The notes under the pieces are model-generated. The model searched no databases. It was given only the letters and a program-made list of their open reading frames with translations, and was not told the origin of the DNA. A stretch of 62,356 nt of DNA from Planctomycetota bacterium (lineage in GTDB: Bacteria; Planctomycetota; Phycisphaerae; Tepidisphaerales; Tepidisphaeraceae), in assembly GCA_039182125.1 (NCBI GenBank), contig JBCDCH010000018.1, forward strand, positions 1 through 62,356. The letters are read 5' to 3'. Each line of letters opens with the position of its first letter. The stretch's first letter is position 1. Shown here piece by piece: positions 21,908 through 34,914 of the stretch. Both the position numbers and the translations under genes were made by a program.

Positions 21908-21980
21908 GAGGCCGTAGCTCAGTTGGTAGAGCATTCGACTTTTAATCGAACGGTCGTGGGTTCGAGCCCCACCGGCCTCA
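21908..21980 (+). tRNA. tRNA-Lys(TTT)
   Basis: A 73-base cloverleaf. The acceptor arm GAGGCCG (21908-21914) pairs with CGGCCTC (21973-21979), with discriminator A at 21980. The D arm starts with GCTC. The anticodon stem TTCGA/TCGAA encloses the loop CTTTTAA (21939-21945), with anticodon TTT at 21941-21943. The T arm is GTGGG/CCCAC with loop TTCGAGC. CCA is not encoded. The 3' part from 21938 onward is duplicated at 34870, showing that this gene is the integration site of the mobile element. Confidence 0.97.
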
Positions 21981-21982
21981 CT
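21938..21982 (+). repeat. attL: 45-bp direct repeat inside the tRNA-Lys gene
   Basis: It is identical to 34870-34914. It begins at the last base of the 5' anticodon stem and runs through the anticodon loop, variable region, T arm and acceptor to two bases past the discriminator. The symmetrical anticodon stem-loop (TTCGA-CTTTTAA-TCGAA) is the likely strand-exchange core, as is usual for tyrosine integrases using tRNA genes. The base before and the base after differ from the right copy, fixing the ends. Confidence 0.93.
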
Positions 21983-22053
21983 CAACGGAAGTTCAAGCCG
22001 GGGCAGCATTTGCCCACACCGCCATCCCAAGGCGAGCGGCGTCCAGCACGAAG

Positions 22054-22078
22054 AAAACCGGTCAACCTGACCGGTTTT
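22054..22078. repeat. perfect inverted repeat near attL (terminator or integrase arm site)
   Basis: AAAACCGGTCA (22054-22064), spacer ACC, TGACCGGTTTT (22068-22078). With flanking A and T runs it can act as a bidirectional intrinsic terminator behind the tRNA. Its core TGACCGG also recurs three times near attR (34726-34761), which fits arm-type binding sites for integrase or excisionase. Confidence 0.7.
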
Positions 22079-22116
22079 GCAATTCGGCTGGTGCATCGCA
22101 ACCCACGGGAGGCACC

Positions 22117-23403
22117 TTGCCCAAGCCTAAATCATCTCATCCCAAGCTCCGCGAGCACAAAGCGAGCTCGCGCGCTTACGTCGTACTCAACGGCCGCACG
22201 ATCTATCTTGGCAAGCACAACGACCCAAAGGCGCATACGGACTACTGGGCATTGATTGCAAAGTGGGAGGCGTCGGGTCGAAGCCTGGAAGGCGTTGCCA
22301 CGGCTGCCGACGATGCGGCGGGTGGGGCGTACACGTTCGCGCACCTGATTCGTGACTTCATGGAGCACGCCCGCGACTACTACGGCGAGTGCGGAGAGGC
22401 CGCGTCGTACAAGTCGGTGTGCCGGTTGCTGCGTGTGTTCCATGAGCGCGAGCCGGTCGCGTCATTCGGTCCGCTCAAGCTCCGCACTTTGCGTGAGCAC
22501 ATGGTTGCGGGAGATTGGTACTACACGCGGCGTGGTGCCGTGGTGAAAGCTCAGCCGTGGAATCGCACCAACGCCAACGCGCAGACCAACCGAATCAAAC
22601 GCATGTTTAAATGGGCGGTCGGGCGTGAGATAATCGACGCGAACACATTGCACGCATTGCAAGCGGTCGAAGCACTGCGGGCCGGGAAGACCAAGGCGAA
22701 GCCGCCACGCAAGGTCGGGCCGGTGTCCGAGGCGATGGTGAACGACGTGCTCCCGCACCTGTCCCGCCAGGTCGCGGCACTTGTGCGGGTGATGTGGTTG
22801 ACGGGCATGCGACCGTCCGAAGCGTGCGCGATGCGACCACTAGAGATTGACGCCACCGGCGACGTTTGGCTTTACAAGCCGAGCCAGCACAAGACCGAGC
22901 ATCACGGCATCGCCCGCGTGATCCCGATCGGTCCGCAGTGCGTGGAAGTGCTCAAGCCATTCATGGACCGCGACGCAGGGGCGTTCATGTTCTCGCCCAT
23001 CGAAGCCGAGCGTGAGCGACGCGCTGCGTTGACGGCGGCCCGCGTCACGCCCGCATCTTGTGGCAACCGTCCCGGCACCAATCGACGCGAGAAGCCAAAT
23101 CGCACGCCGGGCGAGAAGTACGACGCCAGCTCTCTACTCAAGGCGGTCACGCGGGCGTGTGCCAACGCATATCCGTTGCCGAAGGGCATTTGGTCAAACA
23201 GTGCCGAGGGCAAGGCATGGCGTAAACAACACGCGTTCACGCCATATCAACTGCGGCACGCTGCGGCCACGCGAACACGTCAAGCGACGGGCGGGCTTGA
23301 AGCCGTGCAAGTGATGCTCGGCCACCGCAACCAATCAACGACCGAGGTCTATGCCGAGCCGGACCTGAAAGCTGCCGTTGAAGCGGCGCGTCGTTTCGGG
23401 TGA
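22117..23403 (+). CDS. int: tyrosine recombinase / integrase
   Basis: A protein of 428 residues, next to the tRNA it targets. The N-terminus (RAYVVLNGRTIYLGKHNDPKA) is the short beta domain seen in planctomycete integrases, followed by a SAM-like core-binding region (about 70-185). The catalytic domain shows Arg in WLTGMRPSEACAM, a Lys-bearing beta hairpin (KPSQHKTEHHGIARV), PYQLRHAAATR in which the HxxR His is Tyr, and LGHRNQSTTEVYAEPD with the nucleophile Tyr. It inserts and excises the element at the tRNA-Lys. The TTG start at 22117 is supported by GGGAGG at 22107-22112; no ATG lies nearby in frame. Between residues 290 and 350 there is a long insertion rich in Arg and Asn. Confidence 0.93.
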   Translation: MPKPKSSHPKLREHKASSRAYVVLNGRTIYLGKHNDPKAHTDYWALIAKWEASGRSLEGVATAADDAAGGAYTFAHLIRDFMEHARDYYGECGEAASYKSVCRLLRVFHEREPVASFGPLKLRTLREHMVAGDWYYTRRGAVVKAQPWNRTNANAQTNRIKRMFKWAVGREIIDANTLHALQAVEALRAGKTKAKPPRKVGPVSEAMVNDVLPHLSRQVAALVRVMWLTGMRPSEACAMRPLEIDATGDVWLYKPSQHKTEHHGIARVIPIGPQCVEVLKPFMDRDAGAFMFSPIEAERERRAALTAARVTPASCGNRPGTNRREKPNRTPGEKYDASSLLKAVTRACANAYPLPKGIWSNSAEGKAWRKQHAFTPYQLRHAAATRTRQATGGLEAVQVMLGHRNQSTTEVYAEPDLKAAVEAARRFG

Positions 23404-23600
23404 GACGGACAAGTTGAACAAGCACACGACGACGCCGGCCATGACCGCTACTGCACTGCGAGTGGTTCAAGGTCTTCACGTCCGCTAGGGCGTGCTGGCG
23501 TGCGTTTTCCCTTGTGTTTCGCGGTGTTCCGTGGAAGGCGTTGCCAAGCCCGCGACGTTGTAAATCGCTGGTGCTAACGCATCCGCGCCAACGCTTTCGC

Positions 23601-23891
23601 ATGGCGATGCAATCCATGTTTCCGGCTGCGAATGACGCGGTCCTCGACGCGATGCTCACGATCTCCAAGGTCGCCAAGGTGCCCGAGCTGCGCCGCAACG
23701 GCAAGCCACTACACCCGGCCACGGTTCACCGATGGATGGCGGCGGGGCGGTTGCGTTTTGCTGTGGTCGGTGGCGTGCGGCTGTCGTGTCGCCGGTGGGT
23801 CCGCGAGATGATCGCATCCGATTCGCCTGCGCCCGCCGTGACGTATCGCGACGACGTGGACGCCGCCGAGCTTGACGCCGTGCTCGCATAG
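23601..23891 (+). CDS. helix-turn-helix protein, DUF1580/excisionase-like
   Basis: A protein of 96 residues. The central part (MLTISKVAKVPELRRNGKPL then HPATVHRWMAAGRLRFAVVGG and VRLSCRRWVREMI) resembles the DUF1580 and MerR/excisionase type of winged HTH common in planctomycete mobile elements. Position downstream of the integrase, on the same strand, suggests a recombination directionality factor or regulator. The start at 23601 was chosen to begin shortly before the HTH; ATGs at 23607 and 23616 are equally possible, and an upstream extension is Arg-rich and unlike protein. It ends just before the terminator hairpin. Confidence 0.65.
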   Translation: MAMQSMFPAANDAVLDAMLTISKVAKVPELRRNGKPLHPATVHRWMAAGRLRFAVVGGVRLSCRRWVREMIASDSPAPAVTYRDDVDAAELDAVLA

Positions 23892-23895
23892 AAAA

Positions 23896-23925
23896 GCCCC
23901 CCGCCGCGAAGTCGCGGCGGGGGGC
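23896..23925. terminator. strong intrinsic terminator between convergent element genes
   Basis: A perfect 14-base inverted repeat (GCCCCCCGCCGCGA at 23896-23909 with its complement at 23912-23925). On the minus strand the stem is followed by TTTTC, so it terminates the long structural unit that ends at 23956. It lies 5 bases after the plus-strand HTH gene, which it may also insulate. Confidence 0.88.
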
Positions 23926-23955
23926 CGGCGGGGGGTCGAGGATGTGGGGCGGGGA

Positions 23956-26883
23956 CTAGATGCCCTCGATGTTGCCGTTGATTCGTTCAACTTTGTCTAG
24001 CAGTTGACGTAGAAGGTCAGCAACTGTGTTGCCATCCCCGCCCGTCATCGGATTCATCCCGGCGTTGGCCCCGCTCACGCCAGCACCGGCAACCACACCC
24101 GCGACGCCACCGCCAGCCGACACCCCTGCAAGTGCAGCTTGGGCAATGCTCGCCGCAGCTGCGGCGCGGCTGGGCTGCTGTTGATTCAGCTCTCCCATGA
24201 TGGAATCGAGCGCGCCACCAAACGAGTTGCTGGGCCGGGGCGGGGTAACAAGGTCGAAGCTGCTGAACTGCTGTGTCGTGAATCCGCGACCGTACTCGGC
24301 ACGCGCTCCCTCCAACTGTTTGCGCGCGAGGTCCAGCACTCGGTCTGCGTCAGCGTCACGCCCGGCCTGACGAAGCTGCATCGCTTGCGATTGCAGGGGT
24401 GCGACCAACGCCCGCAAATGCGCCTCCGACGAGCGACCGCCGATGATGGAGTCGGCCTGTCGCTCGGCGACACCCATACCAAAATCGAACCGCGCGTCAC
24501 GGTCGCCGAACGCTTGCCGCTGCAATGCCGTGCGGCTGTCAAAAAGTCGATTGGTCGCTGCCGTGAGTTGATCGTCACCGAGTACGCCGCGTAACGCCTG
24601 CTGCCGCTGTAGCTCGATGCCGGCAAGCGTCGCGCCGCGATTATCTCGGCCCAACTGCATGTCGGTGATGCCCGCTGTAGCCCGCAGGTCGGACAGCGCG
24701 TAGCCGCGTTGTCGTTCGACCTGTTCAAGCCGAGCGTTGCCCTGGTCCATGATGCCTTGCCGGACCGCTGCGTATTCGTCCTCCAAGTACGGCGTTGCTT
24801 GCCGGGGAAACCGTTCCAGCCGCCGGGCGGTGTCGCGCTGGATGCCGATGCGCTGCGCCAAGAACGTGTTGCCCGACCGCAGCGCATCGGCACTTGCCCG
24901 CAAGTCGGCCGCCTGGCTCGTGAGGCTACGCCTCGTGCTGGTGATAAGCGTGTCGGTGCGACTGCGGTAATCCTCCTCCACCAATCCGGCCATCACCGGA
25001 TCATCGCCCGCTGCTGCCAAACCCGCCGCCGCATCGGTGTCAAGCTGCGCGAACGCCGCTTCAATGTCTCTGCCGGCGGCTGCCGGGATTCTGCCTGCAA
25101 ACCCTGTGCGTGCGGCTTGCACTTGGCGTTGACGTTGCCGCTGGAATCGTGCATCCGCGAGCCGTTGACGTTGCTCGGCTTGGGGCAGCAACGTGTTTCG
25201 TATCGCCGAGGCCTCAACCGCCATCTGGTTCCGCAAACCCGGATCGCTCACGACGAACTGATTGAGTTCGTACTCGCGGTCAATGTCTTCTTGGCTGCGC
25301 GTTGAAAACCACTCGGCCACGCCCGTCCGCAAGCCTTCACCGAAGCTGATGCCGTTGCGCTCGCCAAGGCTGCTGTCGAGCGACGAGAGACGACGCCGCA
25401 GGTCGCCGATGTCCCGCGACATCGTTTGCTGCTGCTCCATGTTCGCCGCGAACGCGTTGCCCCTTGTGCTGCGTGCCTGTGCTAAACGCGTGGCATCGCG
25501 TGATTCGCCGAGGGTCGAGCGCAACTGGTCCAGTCGGGCCGCCCGTTCAATCTCAATCCGGCCCCGTCGAATCTCGCCGCCGAAACTCGGAATACCCGTG
25601 GCCATGCCCACCGAGTCACCGACGAAACGGAGCGTGCCGCCGAGGATGCCGCCGGTGCCGCCTTCAAGCCCTTGGATGCGTGCGTCTAGAGCTGTGGGCA
25701 TGTCCGGTGCCAGCATCGCCTGCGTGTCGGCTTCCTGGCTCGCACTCAATGCCGCGTTGAGTTCCCACGCACCGAAGACGGCTGCGTAGTAACCGCCTGT
25801 CGAAAAGCCGCCGCCACTACTACCGCCGCCCGTGCGCCCACCGCTACCGCGACCGCCACCCGGCCCGCCCGCAGCGCTGCCCGACATCCCGTAGATTCGA
25901 CCACCGCCACCGCCACCACCACGACCACCGCCACCGAGCATGATGTCGAGCGGTCGGTGCCGGTCCAGCGGGTTACGCTGCCGTCGTCGGTTCTCATCGC
26001 CACCAGCCGAGGTGAACTCGGCATCCACGATGTCACCGCCACCACCACCGCCGGCACCCGGCAACGCACGCCGGTTGCGATCGCCGTTACGCGGGTACGG
26101 CATATCTACGGGGCGGTCGAAGTCGTAGCCGTAGGCGCGCAGCGAATCCGGCATGTCGCCCTGAAACAGTGACCGATGACGGCCCCCAGAAACCCGATTT
26201 TGCGCGTTGTATGGTGCGGGTCCGTGAGTATCGCCTACCCGCCCCCAATCGTCCGAGGATGGAAGGTAGGGGGGTGCCATCCGCTGGGCGGTGAGGTTGG
26301 CGAGTGCTGCGGCCTGGGCGGCTTGGATGCCGGCCCGCTCGGCTCGCATGGAGTTGGTCACGGGTGAGGTGATGCCGTCGCCGCCGCCGATGTTGATGGG
26401 CTTGGAGGCATGCTCCCGCATGCGTTCGATGGCTGCGGTGATGCGGTCGATGTCGCGTACCGCCGCGTCCGCGTTGACAGTGACGCCGCCAGCGATCGAG
26501 CGGGCGGGCGTGTCACCCATGAGTGATGGCAGGCGTGCGGCACGTTCGACGGTGCGGCGTGCTTCCTCGCGGGCAAGGCCGAACTCGTTGCCGAGGGACG
26601 TAAGCACGTCACGGCGTCCGGTGTCCATCGCAAAGCGGGCGTGAGCAACGTCCGGCGGTAGGCCTGTCGTGCCCGCGAGAAGTCGTCCGCCGGTGCTCGT
26701 TGACTGCCAGACGCGGGACACCTGCTCATGCGCGGCTGCCATGGACTGCGCGGCACGCTCAAGCGATGCGATCGTCTGGTGCATGCGATTTTCGGATAGG
26801 CCACGGTCGGGCGTGTCGCCGAAGCCGTCGAGCAGGTCAGTGTCAACGCGGAGCGTGACGCCGGGTACCTTCATGTCCATCAT
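23956..26883 (-). CDS. phage tape-measure-like protein
   Basis: The largest gene of the element, a protein of 975 residues. Residues 30-220 and 430-830 are long Ala/Arg/Gln-rich helices of coiled-coil type (for example ARLDQLRSTLGESRDATRLA and RQRLADARFQRQRQRQ). Residues about 275-365 are extremely Gly-rich (runs of GGGGRGGGGGGG), a flexible hinge. The C-terminus is Ala/Gly-rich and ends in a short helix, VADLLRQLLDKVERINGNIE. Great length, helicity and a place downstream of small tail-type genes are typical of tape-measure proteins, which set siphophage tail length. No membrane-spanning or lysozyme domain is seen. It overlaps the upstream gene by 4 bases (26880-26883). A scaffold-like role is possible if no tail is made. 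Confidence 0.65.
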   Translation of the reverse strand: MMDMKVPGVTLRVDTDLLDGFGDTPDRGLSENRMHQTIASLERAAQSMAAAHEQVSRVWQSTSTGGRLLAGTTGLPPDVAHARFAMDTGRRDVLTSLGNEFGLAREEARRTVERAARLPSLMGDTPARSIAGGVTVNADAAVRDIDRITAAIERMREHASKPINIGGGDGITSPVTNSMRAERAGIQAAQAAALANLTAQRMAPPYLPSSDDWGRVGDTHGPAPYNAQNRVSGGRHRSLFQGDMPDSLRAYGYDFDRPVDMPYPRNGDRNRRALPGAGGGGGGDIVDAEFTSAGGDENRRRQRNPLDRHRPLDIMLGGGGRGGGGGGGRIYGMSGSAAGGPGGGRGSGGRTGGGSSGGGFSTGGYYAAVFGAWELNAALSASQEADTQAMLAPDMPTALDARIQGLEGGTGGILGGTLRFVGDSVGMATGIPSFGGEIRRGRIEIERAARLDQLRSTLGESRDATRLAQARSTRGNAFAANMEQQQTMSRDIGDLRRRLSSLDSSLGERNGISFGEGLRTGVAEWFSTRSQEDIDREYELNQFVVSDPGLRNQMAVEASAIRNTLLPQAEQRQRLADARFQRQRQRQVQAARTGFAGRIPAAAGRDIEAAFAQLDTDAAAGLAAAGDDPVMAGLVEEDYRSRTDTLITSTRRSLTSQAADLRASADALRSGNTFLAQRIGIQRDTARRLERFPRQATPYLEDEYAAVRQGIMDQGNARLEQVERQRGYALSDLRATAGITDMQLGRDNRGATLAGIELQRQQALRGVLGDDQLTAATNRLFDSRTALQRQAFGDRDARFDFGMGVAERQADSIIGGRSSEAHLRALVAPLQSQAMQLRQAGRDADADRVLDLARKQLEGARAEYGRGFTTQQFSSFDLVTPPRPSNSFGGALDSIMGELNQQQPSRAAAAASIAQAALAGVSAGGGVAGVVAGAGVSGANAGMNPMTGGDGNTVADLLRQLLDKVERINGNIEGI

Positions 26884-27266
26884 CGAACTCCGATCGTTTG
26901 TTTGAGTCGGCGGTTGCCGTCCTGCTTAAGTCGTTGGCGGACACCGCGGAGAATCGGACGATTCATCTCGAACTCCAGGCGGATCGCGGCGAGCGGATCG
27001 TCGTCGGGTTCGGCGGGCGGGCGTGACACGCGGAAGGTCGCGGTGGGCATGCCGCGAGCGTCGGTGCCGAGTTCGATCGTGGTGCCCCGCAGCAACTGGC
27101 CGTCCTCACGGCGCGGCTCCTCGCCTTCCACCGAGCGGATAACGCGGTCGCCCAGGCGTTGCACTGGCTTGGACATGCGGTCGCGGAGCTCTCGATACTC
27201 CTCCAACATCAGCGCGTTGAACGCACGCACTACGCGGCGCTTCTGTCGGCGTGTAAGTTTGGCCAT
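26880..27266 (-). CDS. small phage structural protein, HK97-gp10-like
   Basis: A protein of 128 residues, basic N-terminus (MAKLTRRQKRRVVRAFNAL), mixed charged middle and RRLKQTIGVR end. The size, basic character and position between the small 101-residue gene and the tape-measure-like gene match gp10/tail-completion proteins of siphophages. There is no specific motif, so this rests on synteny. It starts inside the preceding stop (TGATG overlap), meaning the two are translationally coupled, and its own stop overlaps the tape-measure start. Confidence 0.5.
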   Translation of the reverse strand: MAKLTRRQKRRVVRAFNALMLEEYRELRDRMSKPVQRLGDRVIRSVEGEEPRREDGQLLRGTTIELGTDARGMPTATFRVSRPPAEPDDDPLAAIRLEFEMNRPILRGVRQRLKQDGNRRLKQTIGVR

Positions 27267-27571
27267 CAGTGCGAGGTGTCTGTAGCCGTCATCATCGACT
27301 CAAGGGCTGCGCGGTTGACGCGTGCCCGGTCGGCAGCTTGCGCGAGGTCCACGGCAACCATTTCCATGATCGATGCCATCCGTCCCACCTGCGCGCGGTC
27401 AAGTTGCACGTCGCCGACGTTGGTAAGGAAGTACTCGCACGCTTCGTTGAGCCAGGCGGCATCGCACGCGACAAACGCCAACAGCGCGTGTACGTGTGCC
27501 GGTAGTTCGGCCGCGTCAATCATTCGTCCGGCCTCGCGTAGTCGCTCCGCTCGTTCGTCTGAATCTGTCAT
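27266..27571 (-). CDS. small element protein upstream of the gp10-like gene
   Basis: A protein of 101 residues starting MTDSDERAERLREAGRMIDA. It is acidic and almost all helical, with AHVHALLAFVACDAAWLNEA and MASIMEMVAVDLAQAADRAR segments. No family is recognised. It is coupled to the gp10-like gene by a TGATG overlap. Tail-assembly chaperones occupy this position before the tape measure in many siphophages, so that is one possibility. The start at 27571 was chosen because further upstream in frame the sequence is unlike protein. Confidence 0.5.
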   Translation of the reverse strand: MTDSDERAERLREAGRMIDAAELPAHVHALLAFVACDAAWLNEACEYFLTNVGDVQLDRAQVGRMASIMEMVAVDLAQAADRARVNRAALESMMTATDTSH

Positions 27572-27689
27572 CGTCGTCAAAACCGCCGCCGACCCGTCAA
27601 GGCCGACGACGGCCATCCAAAGAACAACCGCGCACCCCTGCGCGGACAAACCGCACGCCACGGGGTCAGCCGTGACGGCGGGTGAAGGG

Positions 27690-28142
27690 TTAGTACCGCA
27701 GCACTTGGTCAAAGCCTTGATCGGCTGCGGTGCTCGGGCACTCGTCGGCGCGAAACAACACGGCGAACGCGGACAAGTACGTGCCGGTCGAGCCGTTGCC
27801 CGCGATGGCGACAAGGTCGAGATAACGGCCCACCTTGGCCGGATCAATGTCGAACGCGAATAGCGCATTGTCATTGACAGATTGCGGCGTCGTCGAAAAG
27901 TCACCATCGGTGTTTATTGCCGTGCCGTACGTCAGTGCCGACACGTCGGACAGGCTGCCGCTGGTGTCGCCGGCTTCCACTTTCAACGCAGCCATCCCTA
28001 CGTCGGTTGCACCGAGCTGCACGACGATGAGCACGCGGTTGTAGCCGAGCGTGTCGATCTCGGTTGTGGCAAACGACGCGTTGTCAACGCGCGCGCCCGG
28101 GGGCGTGATCGGGACGATCTTCAAGTCTTGGGAAGGAATCAT
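27690..28142 (-). CDS. phage head-associated protein (decoration/fibre-like), unknown
   Basis: A protein of 150 residues, rich in beta strands with many Asp, Thr and Gly: ASFATTEIDTLGYNRVLIVV, MAALKVEAGDTSGSLSDVS, FAFDIDPAKVGRYLDLVAIA. It follows the capsid gene after a 128-base gap and precedes the 101-residue gene. The pattern resembles a beta-sandwich subunit such as a capsid decoration or head-fibre protein, inferred from its place next to the capsid gene. No homology claim is possible from sequence alone. Two GC-rich hairpins (CCGCGCA/TGCGCGG around 27630-27647 and others) lie downstream. Confidence 0.5.
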   Translation of the reverse strand: MIPSQDLKIVPITPPGARVDNASFATTEIDTLGYNRVLIVVQLGATDVGMAALKVEAGDTSGSLSDVSALTYGTAINTDGDFSTTPQSVNDNALFAFDIDPAKVGRYLDLVAIAGNGSTGTYLSAFAVLFRADECPSTAADQGFDQVLRY

Positions 28143-28270
28143 GTTGGTTGTCTTTCAGTGAGTGTCCCGCGAGTGCCCGCCGCCGGCGTTGAGTCCAGCG
28201 ACGGGCGGGCGGGAAAGGTGTATCAACACCGATCGCGCAGCCATTGGCGTACGCGGCCGGCTGCCGGGGT

Positions 28271-29746
28271 TTAGGACGCGGCCAGTTGCAGACCGACGAT
28301 CGGGCCAGCTTCGGTGGTGCTGCCAACGTCGTGGACGTTGATGTCCCACCGCGTAGTGCCGCGTATGGCGATTTCGTCTTGCTGGAAGCTGTTTTCACCG
28401 TCGATCATGGCCGACTCACTGAACGCCAGCGACGTACCGCGACGGTCGCCGAACGACGCACCGAGCCGGAAGTCGCCATACAGCACCGCGAGCTGGTCAT
28501 TCGCGGCGGTCTTCGGCATGACCTGCGAGATGATGACCGGATCGCCCAAGAAGCGACGAACACCGCCCGCTGCAACCTCGGCCGCTGGTACACCGCCGCT
28601 GGCGAGCATGAGCTTCTGCATCACATTGAAGTAGAATGGCCGCGAAACCACCCAAGCGGGGCTGCGCTCGGCGTACTCGGGCAGCGCACCTTGGACGGCG
28701 TGGAAGTCGTCGAGCGTCAGTTCGCTGTAGGCGTTGCCACTGCCCACGATGATGCCGCCGGCGCTCGTGCCGCTGGGATTCCCCGCAGCGGTCTGCAACG
28801 CCTGGCGGACGCCAACGATGCCGTGGTAGTCCCCGCCGCCATCGCCGTTGAATGCGCAGTCGTCTTCCTTCTGCGAGAACGCGTAGGCGATCTCTTCCGC
28901 GAGGTCGTCCGCGAGGCTGATGACGGCGTCCTCGTTAAGTTCGGCCGACATTTTGCTCAAAACCATCCACTTTCGCGCGGTCAGGCGAACGCGGTCCCAT
29001 GTTTTCGTGGACTTAGTGCCGGCCTGTGATTCGCCCACTGCATACGCGGTGAGGCCGCCGGTGCGTCGCGGGTCGGTGCGGGTGTCGCTTGCCATCGGAC
29101 GAACCTTGAACAACTGCCGCGCAACACCGAATTGCTCGCGCAGGTCGATGAGGTCTGACTGAAACTCATCGGGCACCAAGTAGCCGCCGAGCGGGTTGGC
29201 GTTCTCGATGTGACCCTTGGTATGGAAGCCCGCATCCGCCGCGAAACTGGCGGCCTTGGGGAAGTCATAGCGACCGGGCAAGCAGCGTTGTGCAAGGTCG
29301 AGCGCATACATGCCGAAGCGATAAGCGCGCTCCTCGGCACCGATGGTGCGTTCTCCAGCGTCCTCGGTGTAAACGGTGCGTTCGCCGGTGAAGTTCTTGA
29401 GGGTGCCGCGCAGGGCGGTCGATGGAATAGTGGTCTTGGTCATGTTGTCGGCCTTGGTCATGGCCTTGTGAGCGGTGTTGATTGAACCCGGGTTAAACCG
29501 GGTCGCGTTGGTCTTGTACTTGGCGAGGTGTTGGTCGATTGCGTCGTCGACGGCGCGTTGGAGTTCGGCGGCCGTGGCTTTCGCCTTGGCTTGGTCGCGC
29601 TTCGATGTGATGCCCTCGAACTTGACATCGACGGGCTCGCCGTCGTCGTCGGTGGCCTGGACATCGCTAAGCGCTTTCGCCGCACCATCGAAGCCGATCT
29701 CATCCGCGAGTTCGCGGAAGCGTTTGGTAAGTTTTTCGATGTGCAT
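28271..29746 (-). CDS. HK97-fold major capsid protein
   Basis: A protein of 491 residues. Residues 1-110 are helical and charged (MHIEKLTKRFRELADEIGFD, KAKATAAELQRAVDDAIDQH), like the delta scaffold domain of HK97-type capsids. From about residue 185 the HK97 fold begins: NPLGGYLVPDEFQSDLIDLR, with LFKVRPMASDT, VLSKMSAELNEDAV and LADDLAEEIAYAFSQKEDDC. The end carries PAWVVSRPFYFNVMQKLML, FLGDPVIISQVMP and LYGDFRLGASFGDRRGTSL, which are hallmark capsid segments. No prohead protease is present in the element, so maturation is unclear. The start at 29746 was chosen because the in-frame residues upstream are Arg-rich and unlike protein. It is followed after a 128-base gap by the decoration-like gene. 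Confidence 0.85.
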   Translation of the reverse strand: MHIEKLTKRFRELADEIGFDGAAKALSDVQATDDDGEPVDVKFEGITSKRDQAKAKATAAELQRAVDDAIDQHLAKYKTNATRFNPGSINTAHKAMTKADNMTKTTIPSTALRGTLKNFTGERTVYTEDAGERTIGAEERAYRFGMYALDLAQRCLPGRYDFPKAASFAADAGFHTKGHIENANPLGGYLVPDEFQSDLIDLREQFGVARQLFKVRPMASDTRTDPRRTGGLTAYAVGESQAGTKSTKTWDRVRLTARKWMVLSKMSAELNEDAVISLADDLAEEIAYAFSQKEDDCAFNGDGGGDYHGIVGVRQALQTAAGNPSGTSAGGIIVGSGNAYSELTLDDFHAVQGALPEYAERSPAWVVSRPFYFNVMQKLMLASGGVPAAEVAAGGVRRFLGDPVIISQVMPKTAANDQLAVLYGDFRLGASFGDRRGTSLAFSESAMIDGENSFQQDEIAIRGTTRWDINVHDVGSTTEAGPIVGLQLAAS

Positions 29747-29882
29747 GTGTGTGGTTGTTGAAGTGCGCGCACACGCAAAGCCACCCGCTCGGCCACTGCC
29801 ATCGGTCCGGCGACACGTCCGCCATCCGTTCGGCCGCACACGCGGTCACCGGCTCGGCGGTTGGTGCAAAGTTGTGGTTGCC

Positions 29883-30281
29883 CTAACCCGCCGCGAGGGC
29901 GAGTATCTCCCGTAGATGGAGCTGCTGCTCCTCGTTTAGCCGAGTCATGTCAAATCGCGGTTGTACCCCGTCGGACTCAAACTTTGCCAAGAACTCCAAG
30001 CTGCTAGAAGGGCGTCCCACCGAGCGATCCAGCAGTTCCCGCGCAGCGGCCATCCGAACGCGCTTGTTCTCGTCGGTCATGCCATCACGTAGCACTTGGA
30101 TAGCCGCGTCGATGTCGTCGTCGGTGAGCGTTGCGGCTAGCTTGGCCCTCAGCCTGTTGCTCGCGGCTAACAACGGATTTCCGCCACCGCAAGCGGCGCG
30201 GTTGCCGGGCACGAACTGCCCGCGTCGGTCGCGGTTTGGGTCAGCCCGCGTGGCATCGACTTGCTCGATTGCGTCACTCAC
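29883..30281 (-). CDS. small terminase-like or DNA-binding phage protein
   Basis: A protein of 132 residues. Residues 18-30 (DRRGQFVPGNRAA) carry the GxFxPGN pattern that opens many small phage packaging or DUF5681-like proteins. A helical core with AAIQVLRDGMTDENKRVRMA and ARELLDRSVGRPSSSLEF follows. The segment resembles small terminase subunits, which recognise packaging sites. The expected large terminase is absent from the element. It overlaps the end of the upstream small gene by 8 bases. Alternative: a general DNA-binding protein of the element. Confidence 0.5.
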   Translation of the reverse strand: MSDAIEQVDATRADPNRDRRGQFVPGNRAACGGGNPLLAASNRLRAKLAATLTDDDIDAAIQVLRDGMTDENKRVRMAAARELLDRSVGRPSSSLEFLAKFESDGVQPRFDMTRLNEEQQLHLREILALAAG

Positions 30282-30564
30282 TAGCCACCCCGCGAAGTAA
30301 CGCGATGATCTCGGCAGTTGCCCGCGGCGCTATCGGCTGCCCGCGTCGGTCGAGTCGGTCGGTCGTAGCACGTAACGCCAGCCGCGCAGCATCGCGACGC
30401 GTTGCACTCTCCATGTCTGCCGCTGCCGCGTGCAAGCGTTGCCGGGCAGCTCCGCGATTGCCGCGCATCGCCACACCGCCGGTGCTGTCGAGGTATACGC
30501 CCAACGCGTGCAAGTGGGCCGCGAGTGCGTCGCATCGCGCGTTATCTGCTTTTGTGTCAATCAT
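30274..30564 (-). CDS. small element protein A, paralog of its upstream neighbour
   Basis: A protein of 96 residues: MIDTKADNARCDALAAHLHA at the start, RRDAARLALRATTDRLDRRG in the middle and AEIIALLRGVASE at the end. It aligns with the next upstream gene over its whole length (LA..L..LG, G....G, R.AARL.LRA, I..LLRG), so the two are tandem duplicates. All helical, no known domain. The start at 30564 was chosen by that alignment. It overlaps the upstream gene by 8 bases and the downstream one by 8 bases, so all three are translationally linked. Confidence 0.6.
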   Translation of the reverse strand: MIDTKADNARCDALAAHLHALGVYLDSTGGVAMRGNRGAARQRLHAAAADMESATRRDAARLALRATTDRLDRRGQPIAPRATAEIIALLRGVASE

Positions 30565-30820
30565 CGTTAGAGCCGCGCAGGATGTTGGCGATTGCTTTGC
30601 GGGTGGTGTCCCGTACCAACGACCCGTCAAAGTTGGCTGCGGTACTCATTGCCCGCAGGATCAGCCGCGCAGCCTCACGCATGGTCGGGCACTCCGACTC
30701 GCTCGCTTGCTCGTACACCCGATCAAGCGTCGGGCCAGGGCGGCCGTGGATGCGTAGCTCACCGTCGTCGTTGATGAACGCACCTAACTCACGCAGGCGT
30801 TGGGCGAGGGTCGAGGGCAT
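30557..30820 (-). CDS. small element protein B, paralog of its downstream neighbour
   Basis: A protein of 87 residues: MPSTLAQRLRELGAFINDDG, TMREAARLILRAMSTAANFD and IANILRGSNDD. It shares spacing and conserved residues with protein A at 30274-30564. No domain is recognised. A possible upstream in-frame start would add 16 polar residues; ATG 30820 matches the paralog start. It follows the primase gene after 90 bases on the same strand and is coupled to protein A by an 8-base overlap. A role in replication or early control is only suggested by position. Confidence 0.55.
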   Translation of the reverse strand: MPSTLAQRLRELGAFINDDGELRIHGRPGPTLDRVYEQASESECPTMREAARLILRAMSTAANFDGSLVRDTTRKAIANILRGSNDD

Positions 30821-30910
30821 GGTCGGTTTGCCGTTTTGAGACGGATTCAGTGTCCAACTTCGCAGCATATAGGGGGGGTCTCCCTGCTGCCTCTCTGGGA
30901 CGCCGATGGG

Positions 30911-32164
30911 TTATGCGGACAGTCGGCGTAGGTCAGTAGCGATGGCACCACGGCTTGGTGGCTTGGGGCCGGCCCAATGCTCACGCACCCACGCATGGAC
31001 GGCTCGGATGCTCATGGACCGATCACGCTCGATGGCTTGACGTACAAGCTGCTCACGGGCTGCGGCGATCTCACTGCGGCTCGCCTTCTCGGGCGAGGCG
31101 AGTCCGACCGCTTCGGCCTCTAGCGGCGTGACGTACAGCTCCGCGACGATCCTCTCGTTACGCCACTTGAGCGGCTGCTCGCGATTGATCTGGGATTTGA
31201 CGACGGACTCGGCCTTGGCGACCGGGAAGCTCGGCCGGCAATGAGCGGCAAGCCGATGAACCTTGCGGGCGACTTCGTGTCGCGGCGTCTCGGCTGTCAT
31301 GAGCGCAGACGCATAGATGAGTAGGGCGGAGTTGCGACAGCCTTCGGGGAAACCACCTCGCATCTCGGACAGCATCTCCAGTTGCTCGGCTCGACACTTG
31401 CCGAGTCCGAGTCGGCCAAGCTTGCCTTGCTTGCGACGTGCGGGATCAACGGCTTCGGTACTTGCTCGCCGCCGCTGCCTGGGCGGCTTCACGCCAAGGC
31501 GGTCGGCGATGTCTTGAAGTCCGTAGGTGGCTGCGTTTCCGTGCGAGTCGGTGCTGATCCAGTAGCGGGCGGGTAGCTTGGCCTTGGTGTTGATCGAGCC
31601 GGGCACACGCGACACGCGCGATGCGTCGTACGCCTGGGCGTCTGCTCCAAGCTTGGCGAGTCGCTTGTTGAGTGTCGCTTGGATGCGGTCCCATAGCTCG
31701 ACCTTCTCCGGCCATGCTCGCACGGGCGATTGGTCGTTGCCTTCGGCGAGAAGCCAGAACGCCCAGAGGCCGCGACCCGACTCGGCGTACATGCTCACCT
31801 GCGGCAGTTCGCCCGCGAGCTGGAGTTGGTCGAGCCGGTACCGCAGGTCGATCGGCTCAACACCGAGCCTGTAGCAATCGAGGTCGGCGAAGCAGGACGT
31901 GAGCCAGCGGATGTGCTGCTTGCCACGCTGGCCGCGCACAAACCCGTTGAGTGAGAAGTAGGCGTCACCGTCAAGCCGTCCACCCCATCGGTCGTTGATT
32001 GCAGCAAGGTTCACGCTCATGGCTTTGGTAGCAGTCTCTGCCCAATCGTCGCCCTCGCCTCCACCAAAGACGACATATCCGTCATGTCGGCGGTGCAATA
32101 TGTCGATCGTAGCGGAGTCTAAGTTGACTTGTCGGTCGGTATCTGTTAGGATCACGCCACACAC
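30911..32164 (-). CDS. AEP-type replication primase / RepB-like protein
   Basis: A protein of 417 residues with the archaeo-eukaryotic primase signatures: the hhhDhD motif in CFADLDCYRLG near residue 95, a YAESGRGLWAFWLL turn (the sxH position reads SGRGL) and DASRVSRVPGSINTK near residue 205. A PriCT-like region (GGFPEGCRNSALLIYASALM, about 270-330) follows. The C-terminus (SIRAVHAWVREHWAGPKPPS) looks like an HTH. Such proteins start replication of plasmids and mobile elements; no helicase domain is present. GTG 32164 is preceded by AGGA and fits a conserved N-terminus (YFSLNGFVRG). It is separated from the HTH gene upstream by hairpin S1. Confidence 0.8.
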   Translation of the reverse strand: MCGVILTDTDRQVNLDSATIDILHRRHDGYVVFGGGEGDDWAETATKAMSVNLAAINDRWGGRLDGDAYFSLNGFVRGQRGKQHIRWLTSCFADLDCYRLGVEPIDLRYRLDQLQLAGELPQVSMYAESGRGLWAFWLLAEGNDQSPVRAWPEKVELWDRIQATLNKRLAKLGADAQAYDASRVSRVPGSINTKAKLPARYWISTDSHGNAATYGLQDIADRLGVKPPRQRRRASTEAVDPARRKQGKLGRLGLGKCRAEQLEMLSEMRGGFPEGCRNSALLIYASALMTAETPRHEVARKVHRLAAHCRPSFPVAKAESVVKSQINREQPLKWRNERIVAELYVTPLEAEAVGLASPEKASRSEIAAAREQLVRQAIERDRSMSIRAVHAWVREHWAGPKPPSRGAIATDLRRLSA

Positions 32165-32172
32165 CTTGTCCT

Positions 32173-32220
32173 ACACCGCCTCGGTAGTCGCCAAGCTACG
32201 CCGGGGCGGTGTTTTGTTTG
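32173..32220. repeat. hairpin S1 followed by TTTTGTTTG (first of three related units)
   Basis: Stem ACACCGCC (32173-32180) with GGCGGTGT (32205-32212), continued inward by a T-G pair and CGG/CCG. It is followed on the plus strand by TTTTGTTTG. Because the neighbouring genes are on the minus strand, it would stop antisense transcription, or act as a structured leader with 5' CAAACAAAAC on the minus strand. The same architecture recurs at 33103-33147 and, less closely, at 32549-32586. Confidence 0.7.
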
Positions 32221-32224
32221 TTGC

Positions 32225-32431
32225 TTACGCTGTCGCCGACTGCCGCCGCTTGGCCGCTATGCGTGCTGCGGTCGCCCTGATCTGCTCGACCGCCGCTTGG
32301 TCGAAAAGCCGCGTCCCGGCTACACGAGTCACGGGCCGGGCTCCGCTCTTGTCGATGGCGTACTTGGTCTGGTGGGGTGGCAAGCCGAGGTCGTCGGCGA
32401 TCTGGCCAAAGGTCTTGAGGTCCAAGGTCAT
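32225..32431 (-). CDS. small helix-turn-helix protein of the element
   Basis: A protein of 68 residues: MTLDLKTFGQIADDLGLPPH then QTKYAIDKSGARPVTRVAGT and RLFDQAAVEQIRATAARIA. The FGQIADDLGLPPHQTKY helix pair and the wing RVAGTRLFDQAAVEQI follow the AlpA/MerR-type excisionase pattern. It is the second gene of the minus-strand unit, upstream of the primase. An in-frame extension upstream would overlap the terminator-like hairpin and has no protein character, so the start at 32431 is used. A regulator of the element's own genes is likely. Confidence 0.6.
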   Translation of the reverse strand: MTLDLKTFGQIADDLGLPPHQTKYAIDKSGARPVTRVAGTRLFDQAAVEQIRATAARIAAKRRQSATA

Positions 32432-32548
32432 GTCGTACTCCTGTGCCCGCCCGCTATAGAAAGGGACGCCGCCATACAAAAAAGTTTCACCGTCGGCGAG
32501 ACAGGGAAGTAGTGTACCACGTACCTCCATGTCGGCGGCTATAAAACC

Positions 32549-32586
32549 CCTGCCCGGCGGTCATGCCGAGCAAGGCGGTTTGTTTG
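32549..32586. terminator. hairpin S2, terminator-like in both directions
   Basis: Stem CCTGCCCGGC (32549-32558) with GCCGAGCAAGG (32565-32575), followed on the plus strand by GTTTGTTTG and on the minus strand by GGGGTTTTAT. It starts 3 bases beyond the stop of the minus-strand gene at 32589-33083, so it probably ends that transcript. It is the second of three related hairpin units. Confidence 0.7.
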
Positions 32587-32588
32587 GG

Positions 32589-33083
32589 CTACAAGCGGAA
32601 GCCGAGCGCGGGCACGTCGGGCAAGTCGGCGTCGAGCAGGAAGCTATCGACGGCCATCACGACCGCATCCTCAACGCTTGTGCGGCGATCGGTAGACCAC
32701 TCGCCGCTGTAACTGCCAGACTCGATGCGATACGTCGCATCGCCTACACGCTGACCGTCCACGTGTGACGCGATGCCAACGGTGACGGAGACCGTGAGCA
32801 ACGCGGCAAGGTCGGGGCGGTTGAGCCTGCCGAGCAACGCACGGACTCCCGACTCAATCCTTCCGCGCTGCTCATTGGCGTACCGAATAGCAGCGAGGGC
32901 GTCGGCCGCGTCGTCGTCGAGCACCGGCTCATGACGGGCGAGGTGTGAGGCGTACTCGGCGAGGTCGTCGTCCGTCGGCTCGACGCTCGCGAGCAAGGAT
33001 TGTGCGTTTTCGGCGTTGTCGGCGGTGATGAACGCGTCGGCGGCGACGTTGTGCGCGCCCGTTGGGATAGAATGAGTCTGCAT
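32589..33083 (-). CDS. element protein of unknown function (first gene of the minus-strand unit)
   Basis: A protein of 164 residues, strongly acidic. It has helical segments (DDLAEYASHLARHEPVLDDD, ADALAAIRYANEQRGRIESG) and a beta-rich second half (AALLTVSVTVGIASHVDGQR, ATYRIESGSYSGEWSTDRRT). No family is recognised. It is transcribed first from the divergent switch region: a GGAG site precedes ATG 33083 and a good minus-strand promoter (33190-33218) lies upstream. Such a position is often held by early regulators or anti-repressors. A terminator-like hairpin follows the stop. Confidence 0.55.
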   Translation of the reverse strand: MQTHSIPTGAHNVAADAFITADNAENAQSLLASVEPTDDDLAEYASHLARHEPVLDDDAADALAAIRYANEQRGRIESGVRALLGRLNRPDLAALLTVSVTVGIASHVDGQRVGDATYRIESGSYSGEWSTDRRTSVEDAVVMAVDSFLLDADLPDVPALGFRL

Positions 33084-33102
33084 CGGCTAACTCCGGTGCT
33101 GT

Positions 33103-33147
33103 GCCCCTCGGAGGTTCCTACGCCAATCCGGGGGGCCGTTTTGTTTG
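33103..33147. repeat. hairpin S3 followed by TTTTGTTTG
   Basis: Stem GCCCC (33103-33107) with GGGGC (33132-33136), continuing through a T-G pair into CGGA (33109-33112) with TCCG (33127-33130), ten pairs in all. It is followed on the plus strand by TTTTGTTTG. It lies in the 5' leader of the minus-strand gene starting at 33083. Its layout matches S1 at 32173-32220. Confidence 0.65.
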
Positions 33148-33189
33148 CGGGCGAATGCCCGGTCGCGGCGAAGTGCCGACGACGCGTTT

Positions 33190-33218
33190 ACGGTATCGAC
33201 TGCCCGCCAGCGTGTCAA
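33190..33218 (-). promoter_or_regulatory. minus-strand promoter of the element's long unit
   Basis: Reading the minus strand: -35 TTGACA (33213-33218), a 17-base spacer and -10 TACCGT (33190-33195). The -35 is a perfect sigma-70-type match and the -10 is weaker. It lies upstream of the gene starting at 33083, and its -35 overlaps the left operator half-site. Confidence 0.6.
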
Positions 33219-33245
33219 TAGCGTACGTTCTATTTTGTCGCTATT
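33217..33245. promoter_or_regulatory. inverted-repeat operator between divergent promoters
   Basis: AATAGCG (33217-33223) and CGCTATT (33239-33245) with a 15-base spacer. The left half overlaps the minus-strand -35 and the right half abuts the plus-strand -35, so one bound repressor dimer could control both. The likely binder is the XRE protein encoded at 33283. Confidence 0.6.
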
Positions 33246-33248
33246 CGT

Positions 33249-33276
33249 TTGATATTTGAGATTTCGTTGGTATTCT
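33249..33276 (+). promoter_or_regulatory. plus-strand promoter of the XRE repressor gene
   Basis: -35 TTGATA (33249-33254), a 16-base spacer and -10 TATTCT (33271-33276). The expected transcription start (about 33282-33283) falls on the GTG start of the XRE gene, predicting a leaderless mRNA. Confidence 0.6.
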
Positions 33277-33282
33277 GTTGAG

Positions 33283-33492
33283 GTGCCCATCCACGTCAAC
33301 ACGATTCGCACGCTGCGGCTTCGGCTCGGCATCACGCAAGCGGAGGCGGCCCGCCGTGCGGGGATGAAGTACGCGAGCCAATGGAGCGAAGTCGAGCGGG
33401 GGGACAAACCCGACCCGCAGCTCAGCACCGCTGAACGCATCGCCGAAGTTCTCGGTGTGACGGTGGACGCGTTGACACAAAAGGCAGAGTGA
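33283..33492 (+). CDS. XRE-family repressor of the element
   Basis: A protein of 69 residues: VPIHVNTIRTLRLRLGITQAEAARRAGMKYASQWSEVERGDKPDPQLSTAERIAEVLG broken here for reference into the core ITQAEAARRAGMKYASQWSE and STAERIAEVLGVTVDALTQK. This is a bare Cro/C1-type HTH with no protease or dimer domain. It is transcribed away from the minus-strand unit and is the natural repressor of the switch. The GTG start is preferred to a TTG at 33256 because the promoter -10 element lies between them, and a leaderless start at the GTG fits the predicted +1. Its stop faces the nuclease gene across 7 bases. Confidence 0.85.
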   Translation: MPIHVNTIRTLRLRLGITQAEAARRAGMKYASQWSEVERGDKPDPQLSTAERIAEVLGVTVDALTQKAE

Positions 33493-33499
33493 TTGCCTG

Positions 33500-34462
33500 T
33501 CAGTTGCGGCGAGGGAACATTGAATGCTCGCCACGCAGGAGCATCGCCAAGCCGTCGCGGTCAATCCATGCGACTCGGTTCCGCTGGGCAAGCATTACTG
33601 CACCCTCGCTCAGGTAACTATTCGTCACAACCACGGCGTACTCGCAGTTGTACATGGCAATGCCGGCAAACGCTTCTTGCACTGCGGTGTTTGGGACGAC
33701 CCCGCTATACCGCTTCGCCTGAACGACACACCAGCCAAAGTCTGCCTCGACGACGAGGTCAACGCCGTGGTCTCCTGGTCCGCCGACATGACGAACGTTG
33801 TACCCCAGCCAGCGAAACACGTACTCCAAGAAATACTCGAACTCGTCACCGGTTAGATCATCCACATGGGTGTGCTCACGCCCCCACGCCGGGTGGAAGT
33901 ATGTGCCATCAGGTTTGGGGCGCGAGCGAACGTGACTGCGCCAAGCATCGTGGTCAACTTGAAACACGGCTTCTTGGTCGTTTGCCCGATCTGGGCTCCG
34001 TGAATCTGTGTGAGAACGACGCTCTCGCTCGCGTTTCCGGATTTCAGTTGCCAGCTTTGCCGACTGTTCCGCGAGCTCGGTCGCCCGCACCTTCGCGGCG
34101 AGCTTACGTTCTCGATGTTCCCTTGCCCGAACGATCCATGTTTCGGGTAAGTCGACACGATCTTCGGGCGATAGGGAGAAGAAGAAGCCGATGGCTAAGG
34201 CGATACCGACGATGATCGGAACGCCGCCCGCCAAGGCAGTGGCGAGCATGTTCAGGGACACCATTCCAATGGGCAGAGAGAGTGCAACTGAAATTGCTGC
34301 ACTAGCAATGATAATCGAGGCCTCGAGTGGCAACGGTAGCAGGGTGTGAAGACGTGCTCGTAGTCGGGCATGCCGTTCCCGGCGGTGCTCGGCGTTGGCT
34401 TGCAATGTCGCAAGTTTGGCCTTTTCTTCGAGCTTTTGTTGATCGCGCCAGTCCCCGGACAC
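33500..34462 (-). CDS. membrane-anchored Mrr-like restriction endonuclease
   Basis: A protein of 320 residues. Two membrane helices lie near the N-terminus (about 47-68, ASIIIASAAISVALSLPIGM, and 74-95). A charged coiled-coil linker follows (about 110-160, ERKLAAKVRATELAEQSAKL). The C-terminal Mrr_cat domain spans about 200-310, with LTGDEFEYFLEYVFRWLGY, GGPGDHGVDLVVEADFGWCV then VVQAKRYSGVVPNTAVQEAF, that is the Asp plus the QxK nuclease motif. Mrr-type enzymes cut modified or stressed DNA. A membrane-anchored form next to attR, convergent with the repressor, looks like cargo for anti-phage or superinfection defence, or an abortive system; this is inference. Confidence 0.8.
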   Translation of the reverse strand: MSGDWRDQQKLEEKAKLATLQANAEHRRERHARLRARLHTLLPLPLEASIIIASAAISVALSLPIGMVSLNMLATALAGGVPIIVGIALAIGFFFSLSPEDRVDLPETWIVRAREHRERKLAAKVRATELAEQSAKLATEIRKRERERRSHTDSRSPDRANDQEAVFQVDHDAWRSHVRSRPKPDGTYFHPAWGREHTHVDDLTGDEFEYFLEYVFRWLGYNVRHVGGPGDHGVDLVVEADFGWCVVQAKRYSGVVPNTAVQEAFAGIAMYNCEYAVVVTNSYLSEGAVMLAQRNRVAWIDRDGLAMLLRGEHSMFPRRN

Positions 34463-34605
34463 GACGGCAACGCTACCGAAACCGATATCGTAACGCTACC
34501 AGCTGGATATGGCTGAAAGGGTCTGCCATACCTCAACGCCCGTCACTTCTCAACCTAGACACGCACCGCCAGCACGTGGCCAGCGGGGCGAATCGGTGCC
34601 GACTC

Positions 34606-34645
34606 TGTAAACGTTTACAAGCCCAGTCGTCTGCAAACGTTTACA
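34606..34645. promoter_or_regulatory. two LacI/GalR-type CG-centred palindromes
   Basis: TGTAAACGTTTACA (34606-34619) is a perfect 14-base palindrome. A second copy TGCAAACGTTTACA (34632-34645) differs at one base and lies exactly 26 bases later, with the following AAGCC also repeated. The form is that of LacI-family operators. No LacI-type gene is in the window, so the binder is unknown; an integrase or excisionase accessory site is an alternative. Confidence 0.5.
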
Positions 34646-34725
34646 AGCCTACCCCACTACCTCCCCCTCTACGACCGTCTCACCCGGCAACGCCCCGCCC
34701 TGGCACTTGGCCAGCAGCCGCAAGA

Positions 34726-34761
34726 TTGACCGGTTTGACCGGTTTGGCTCCGATTGACCGC
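34726..34761. repeat. direct repeats TTGACCGGT near attR
   Basis: TTGACCGGT occurs twice in tandem (34726-34734 and 34735-34743) and TTGACCGC once more (34754-34761). The core TGACCGG matches the arms of the inverted repeat near attL (22054-22078), so these are candidate arm-type binding sites of the integrase. Confidence 0.6.
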
Positions 34762-34869
34762 TTGAGTTGTCACTGTGTGCAATACTTGCAATCCCCGCTG
34801 GCGTCGGTATTGTGCCCAAAACGCCGTTTTCGCCCTGATATGTGACATGTTGGGGGTGCGATAGCAAGA

Positions 34870-34914
34870 ACTTTTAATCGAACGGTCGTGGGTTCGAGCC
34901 CCACCGGCCTCACT
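34870..34914 (+). repeat. attR: 45-bp copy of the tRNA-Lys 3' part
   Basis: It is identical to 21938-21982. The 5' half of a tRNA is missing here (the bases before it do not continue the cloverleaf), so this is the displaced original 3' end of the host gene and not a second tRNA gene. It lies 16 bases from the stop of the chromosomal substrate-binding protein gene. Confidence 0.93.

Follow-up and report, generated by a model that had tools for sequence, protein, structure and literature searches.

Can a mobile element that carries its own phage capsid gene, and no motor to fill the capsid, live as a parasite of phages? This question is raised by a window of 62,356 nucleotides (nt; the window is the whole stretch of DNA analysed) from contig JBCDCH010000018.1 of the Planctomycetota assembly GCA_039182125.1. 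The initial annotation described a block of capsid and tail-type genes at 23956-33083, lacking large terminase, portal and protease, and proposed a possible phage satellite. The block is real, compact and intact, but constitutes only part of a 12,977-bp element at 21938-34914, delimited by a repeat search of the window and including an integrase. This element is probably an integrative, capsid-bearing phage satellite, which would use the packaging motor, portal and tail of a helper phage. Its ends are perfect 45-nt direct repeats of the tRNA-Lys 3' end, and it combines the general traits of a phage satellite: site-specific integration between exact attachment (att) repeats, an integrase, a size far below that of a helper phage and the absence of essential virion genes. 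The features that carry this reading are the following (aa, amino acids):

21908-21981, plus strand: tRNA-Lys (TTT), the 3' end of which is the integration target (ARAGORN)
21938-21982, plus strand: attL, a perfect 45-nt direct repeat (repeat search)
22117-23403, plus strand: intact tyrosine integrase, adjoining attL (PF00589, 2.4e-15; phrog_1, 4e-32)
23956-26883, minus strand: long-helical, tape-measure-like protein of 975 aa, last gene of the operon (homology to a sister element; low-confidence model)
27690-28142, minus strand: decoration-like protein (phrog_5707, 2.3e-6, a family of unknown function; homologs beside phage capsids)
28271-29746, minus strand: HK97-fold major capsid protein of 491 aa (PF05065, 1.3e-36; phrog_10, 3e-33)
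29883-30281, minus strand: probable small terminase of 132 aa (homolog overlapping the large terminase in the full prophage G086:C70; no profile match)
34870-34914, plus strand: attR, the second perfect 45-nt copy (repeat search)

The capsid announced by the initial annotation is, from its profile matches, certain. The decoration-like gene was also recognised correctly; its label is fair, because its homologs directly adjoin the capsid in full phages (L004 and L005). One scan of genome contigs with the window capsid gave no match. Among solved capsids, the nearest in sequence belongs to the Rhodobacter gene transfer agent (6tba, 1.5e-8). The capsid of a capsid-forming phage-inducible chromosomal island (cf-PICI) has been placed on the same branch as this gene transfer agent capsid (PMC12846349).

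The packaging motor is missing, as the initial annotation had stated. Neither large terminase nor portal nor protease is found in the element with Pfam and PHROGs at E<=1, which answers the suggestion made at the time that the small proteins be searched for hidden folds of these types. Likewise, 17 portal, large-terminase and protease queries from related phages give no tblastn match in the element and reveal no relics, while the same set detects the portal and terminase of a prophage resident in the genome, as a positive control. A hidden portal, terminase or protease is rejected by these profile and homology searches. All frames of at least 250 aa are assigned (integrase, capsid, primase, nuclease), except that of the 975-aa protein. 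No tail tube gene is recognised in the element, and no lysis or fibre gene either, in line with the earlier description. The element does not show the marks of a defective prophage, since the frames are intact and no portal, terminase or protease relics are present, nor those of a gene transfer agent, since it has an integrase and att repeats and contains no large terminase or portal.

What the element has of the packaging apparatus is probably a small terminase. The label is supported because the homolog of the 132-aa protein in G086:C70 overlaps the start of the large terminase (phrog_2, E 1.6e-43), after which the portal follows. The terminase-small-like call thus stands by the position of this homolog and not by profiles, as the protein matches nothing in Pfam or PHROGs and has no match in phage records. 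Its further homologs sit outside phage contexts, and its single-sequence structure prediction is unusable (predicted local distance difference test, pLDDT, 47). One locus in another genome (G006:C128:1-7300; L098/L108) has the layout of a phage-inducible chromosomal island (PICI), with an integrase, a small helix-turn-helix (HTH) protein, a homolog of the small-terminase-like protein and a primase, and no capsid.

The 975-aa protein may plausibly be a tape measure. The role is suggested by a model made mostly of long helices, by the shared position and homology in a sister element, and by a length close to that of the resident prophage's tape measure (1015 aa). The single-sequence model is too uncertain to be used by itself (pLDDT 45), but about 150 C-terminal residues are homologous to the 868-aa protein found at the same position in the sister (blastp 2e-9). 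The earlier tape-measure-like call is made plausible by the helical model, the place at the operon end and the sister homology, and finds no profile match: the protein has no counterpart in Pfam, PHROGs, phage records or PDB, no profile link to known tape measures, and no match in a viral-contig scan.

Two other loci of the same genome bear on this reading. The sister element lies on contig C55 (G000:C55:12703-25844; L107/L092) and has the same backbone, with neither capsid nor motor. It shares with the window element the repressor (7e-11), an HTH protein (3e-8), the small-terminase-like protein (8e-12), the long terminal protein and the 164-aa protein that opens the operon. Its primase and its integrase are different ones, and the integrase frame seems broken near the contig end. 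As the backbone common to both is devoid of motor genes, the capsid and decoration genes together resemble a module that one element gained or the other lost. The second locus, on contig C13, is a near-complete siphophage-type prophage with large terminase (1e-127), portal (1e-87), protease, capsid, adaptor, major tail protein and the 1015-aa tape-measure frame, at which the contig ends. This prophage is a possible helper.

Motor-less capsid elements recur in the host's class. A capsid search over 397 genomes (draft assemblies) found 89 capsid places in 76 genomes, with a PF04860 portal at most 15 kb away in 31 of the 89. Not every portal-less locus is taken as a satellite, since their number is inflated by the many short contigs, by portals of other families and by the dispersed system of family f5 described below; each locus was, therefore, judged individually. 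Six motor-less capsid elements are flanked by exact tRNA repeats of 20-48 nt and have an integrase and a replication gene (L026, L043, L044, L046, L055 and L060); two more (L052 and L053) are similar integrase-borne elements, for which no repeat was established. All eight are without large terminase and portal. Their small terminase is confirmed in five, by Pfam and PHROG in L043, L046 and L060, and by PHROG in L052 and L053. The latter two, with the same missing set as the window element, also carry unmistakable tape measures (phrog_9483, 2.7e-50 and 2.1e-67). The L046 integrase is homologous to that of the window element. Viral-contig scans with the capsids of L046, L044 and L053 gave no match. 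Two of the tRNA elements encode homologous proteins of 130-137 aa immediately upstream of the capsid (L046:4038-4451 and L055:5015-5407, both minus strand), possibly a satellite-specific assembly factor.

A second set of about 7 kb comprises repressor, protease, capsid, usually a decoration-like gene, tape measure and small genes, again with no large terminase or portal. It is present in families f8, f20 and f22, where its chromosomal sites differ, and partial copies are present in f16. Its closest viral-contig relatives (about 55-68% capsid identity) are also without portal and terminase, and its remoter ones are phage modules. Two of the close relatives (L124 and L126; IMG/VR, about 17.8 kb) hold two related capsid units in tandem, in the order repressor-protease-capsid-decoration-MuA-MuB, then repressor-protease-capsid-tape measure. 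In a third set, MuA- and MuB-type genes are added to protease, capsid and tape measure, and large terminase and portal are absent as well.

The capsid tree (40 rows) intermingles motor-less elements with full phages: well-supported branches force at least eight label changes, some rows labelled uncertain (e.g., L052) having later been judged motor-less. Because of this intermingling, the tree indicates that motor-less capsid elements arose, or captured capsids, repeatedly. The 7-kb set forms one branch of about ten rows, beside phages L027 and L029, with no motor found in any of them; by the same tree, at least one motor-less lineage has persisted and diversified. Recurrence in related bacteria, together with an own capsid and no motor, makes the window element most likely a parasite of a virus, which would bring the container and borrow the engine and the tail. 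The satellite proposal of the initial annotation is, therefore, strengthened by the absence of a hidden motor, by the motor-less sister and by the same missing set in many bounded elements.

Several points nevertheless weigh against a satellite. The small-terminase and tape-measure labels rest, in the window element, on position and weak homology. The nearest relatives of its capsid module are full phage modules (L004, L005 and L025), and in the tree its capsid clusters with the phage contig L004 and one truncated locus. No closely related intact copy of the element was found in another genome, and comparison with the C13 prophage for shared DNA that could act as a cos or pac site gave short matches only.

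The main rival is a deletion-form prophage, an unlikely but serious alternative. A full temperate phage at tRNA-Lys would have lost its large terminase, portal, protease and most tail genes, to leave a non-mobile or decaying remnant. The initial annotation had pointed to this outcome in case homologous prophages with motor genes at the corresponding place were found. Such relatives exist for the capsid and decoration module, whose closest counterparts are full phages in which portal and protease precede the capsid, but not for the backbone, which the C55 sister possesses, also without a motor. With this shared motor-less backbone, a single recent deletion in a phage becomes less likely. Moreover, at least two separate clean deletions would be required. 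Every frame is intact, the genes are tightly packed and no relics are found, and the same set is missing from many independent elements.

Another rival, which is improbable, makes the element an interference device, whose capsid homolog would mainly distort or poison helper capsid assembly instead of forming the main satellite shell. The precedent is the Ccm protein of SaPIbov5, which redirects capsid shape (PMC8569155). The window capsid and that of the resident prophage, however, lie in different, well-supported parts of the tree, which makes co-assembly with this prophage unlikely, though another helper may be closer. A domesticated shell with a cellular or defence role (nanocompartment-like), in a genomic island that is not a phage parasite, is very hard to believe: HK97 capsids have been exapted as encapsulins and the element has an Mrr-type nuclease, but in several siblings, and probably in the window element, the capsid comes with a small terminase, tape measures occur in siblings, and the repressor and primase are of phage type.

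For the preferred reading, that of a capsid-bearing satellite, the following cycle can be proposed. Helper induction or infection would relieve the repressor, and the element would excise and replicate by means of its own primase. Satellite shells would be built on the helper's portal from the capsid protein of the element, possibly together with the decoration-like protein, and its small terminase would lead the large terminase of the helper to the satellite DNA. Once filled, the shells would receive helper tails, the helper also providing the maturation protease and lysis. As for the 975-aa protein, it would serve as a tape measure of the satellite itself or as a different virion protein.

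The element resembles several known systems in part. Besides their capsids, cf-PICIs encode terminase, portal, protease and connectors. They form capsids of their own and have a mean size of about 14 kb (PMC10803314, PMC11389934). The window element is likewise integrated, of similar size and equipped with its own major capsid protein, and would also need helper tails. It differs in having no large terminase, portal or protease of its own, and in its long tape-measure-like protein. As motor, portal and protease are absent, it is not filed as a cf-PICI; it is related to this group but outside it, and may work partly like one. The initial annotation was right in substance that the missing set differs from that of cf-PICIs.

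PICIs, for their part, carry integrase, AlpA-type regulator and primase, use the helper's large terminase, and resize helper capsids without having a full capsid gene. Those of the type of the Staphylococcus aureus pathogenicity islands (SaPIs) encode TerS (PMC8569155). The window element shares the integrase and the primase, and may share a small terminase (from the position of its homolog); its HTH genes match only weakly, and it brings a full capsid gene. SaPIbov5 is a satellite with a capsid-protein homolog, Ccm, which works with the helper's particle machinery and can redirect helper particles (PMC8569155). SaPIbov5, however, has no TerS, and the helper capsid on which it acts is closely homologous; the window element, in contrast, has a probable small terminase and a capsid far from that of the resident prophage. 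Tycheposons/VEIMEs target tRNA genes by means of a tyrosine recombinase, and some of them have capsid and small-terminase genes. They offer a possible precedent for this combination. In the Mulch/Flayer satellite-helper systems of Streptomyces, the satellites encode encapsidation machinery, as does the window element with its capsid, and are described as dependent on the helper's replication machinery (PMC10690885); the window element differs in carrying a primase and lacking the motor. No paper on phage satellites was found for Planctomycetes, the group to which the gene content of the genome also points, and no satellite carrying a tape measure is apparent from the titles and abstract openings of the seven papers found that name both phage satellites and tape measures.

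Known satellites either rely on the helper for the entire particle or, in the case of cf-PICIs, bring head and motor and borrow tails only. A shell and, in the confirmed siblings, a tape measure without motor or portal would show that head building is separable from the motor in satellite evolution. Motor-less capsid elements also make it possible to test whether a foreign capsid assembles on the portal of a helper, and their recurrence in the class means that hosts and helpers could be chosen for experiments. A broader proposal, to which we give somewhat less than an even chance, is that they represent a class-wide, repeatedly evolved kind of satellite, with capsid and tape measure (and small terminase or protease), without motor or portal, and carried by tRNA-site tyrosine integrases, by Mu-type genes or with no recognisable mobility genes. 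If so, such satellites would set both the head and the tail length of a hybrid particle and borrow the motor, a sharing of tasks unlike that of known capsid-forming satellites.

The block first described is a single minus-strand late operon of eleven genes, from 33083 down to 23956, which ends in a strong terminator-like hairpin. Neighbouring genes overlap or are separated by 58-166 nt. The remaining features of the element are as follows:

23601-23891, plus strand: small HTH protein, adjoining the integrase and possibly an excisionase (weak HTH_17 match, 0.015, on a longer frame)
23895-23926, minus strand: terminator-like hairpin of 14 pairs, behind the late operon (sequence)
26880-27266, minus strand: protein of 128 aa, formerly called gp10-like (no match)
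27266-27523, minus strand: protein of 85 aa (gene call), with a 94-aa gene at the same place in the sister (homology not significant)
30274-30564, minus strand: protein of 96 aa, paralog of its 87-aa neighbour (longer frame: sub-threshold Tail_completion_gp17, 2.9e-4)
30557-30820, minus strand: protein of 87 aa, paralog of its 96-aa neighbour (sequence comparison)
30911-32164, minus strand: primase-like replication protein (phrog_2478, 1e-11; phrog_9432, 4.8e-8)
32225-32530, minus strand: HTH (MerR/excisionase-like) regulator (weak PF13411, 0.2; conserved in the sister, 3e-8)
32589-33083, minus strand: protein of 164 aa, first gene of the operon (conserved in the sister: 5e-44, 57% identity over 129 aa)
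33256-33492, plus strand: Cro/CI-type repressor, divergent from the operon (PF13560, 9.9e-12)
33500-34462, minus strand: Mrr-type restriction nuclease at the attR end, likely defence cargo (PF04471, 4.3e-23; PADLOC, ZorD/type IV restriction-like)

The gp10-like call is not supported, as the 128-aa protein matches nothing in Pfam, PHROGs or 50,697 phage records; the 85-aa protein has no PHROG match. The 164-aa protein serves as a marker gene: a search of other genomes (298 in total) gave no clear homolog and viral contigs gave no match, and the immediate family is thus known to date from the source genome only. Just inside attR, at 34604-34649, two 20-nt repeats with the palindrome TGTAAACGTTTACA stand 26 nt apart, one of them with one mismatch; they are possible regulator, excision or replication sites.

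In family f5, about twenty genomes each hold one capsid and one portal, within a narrow score range, on separate contigs or far apart (e.g., G029, G038 at C76:18452 and 65961, G061, G073, G099 and G118). This pair looks like a vertically inherited, dispersed gene-transfer-agent-like system.

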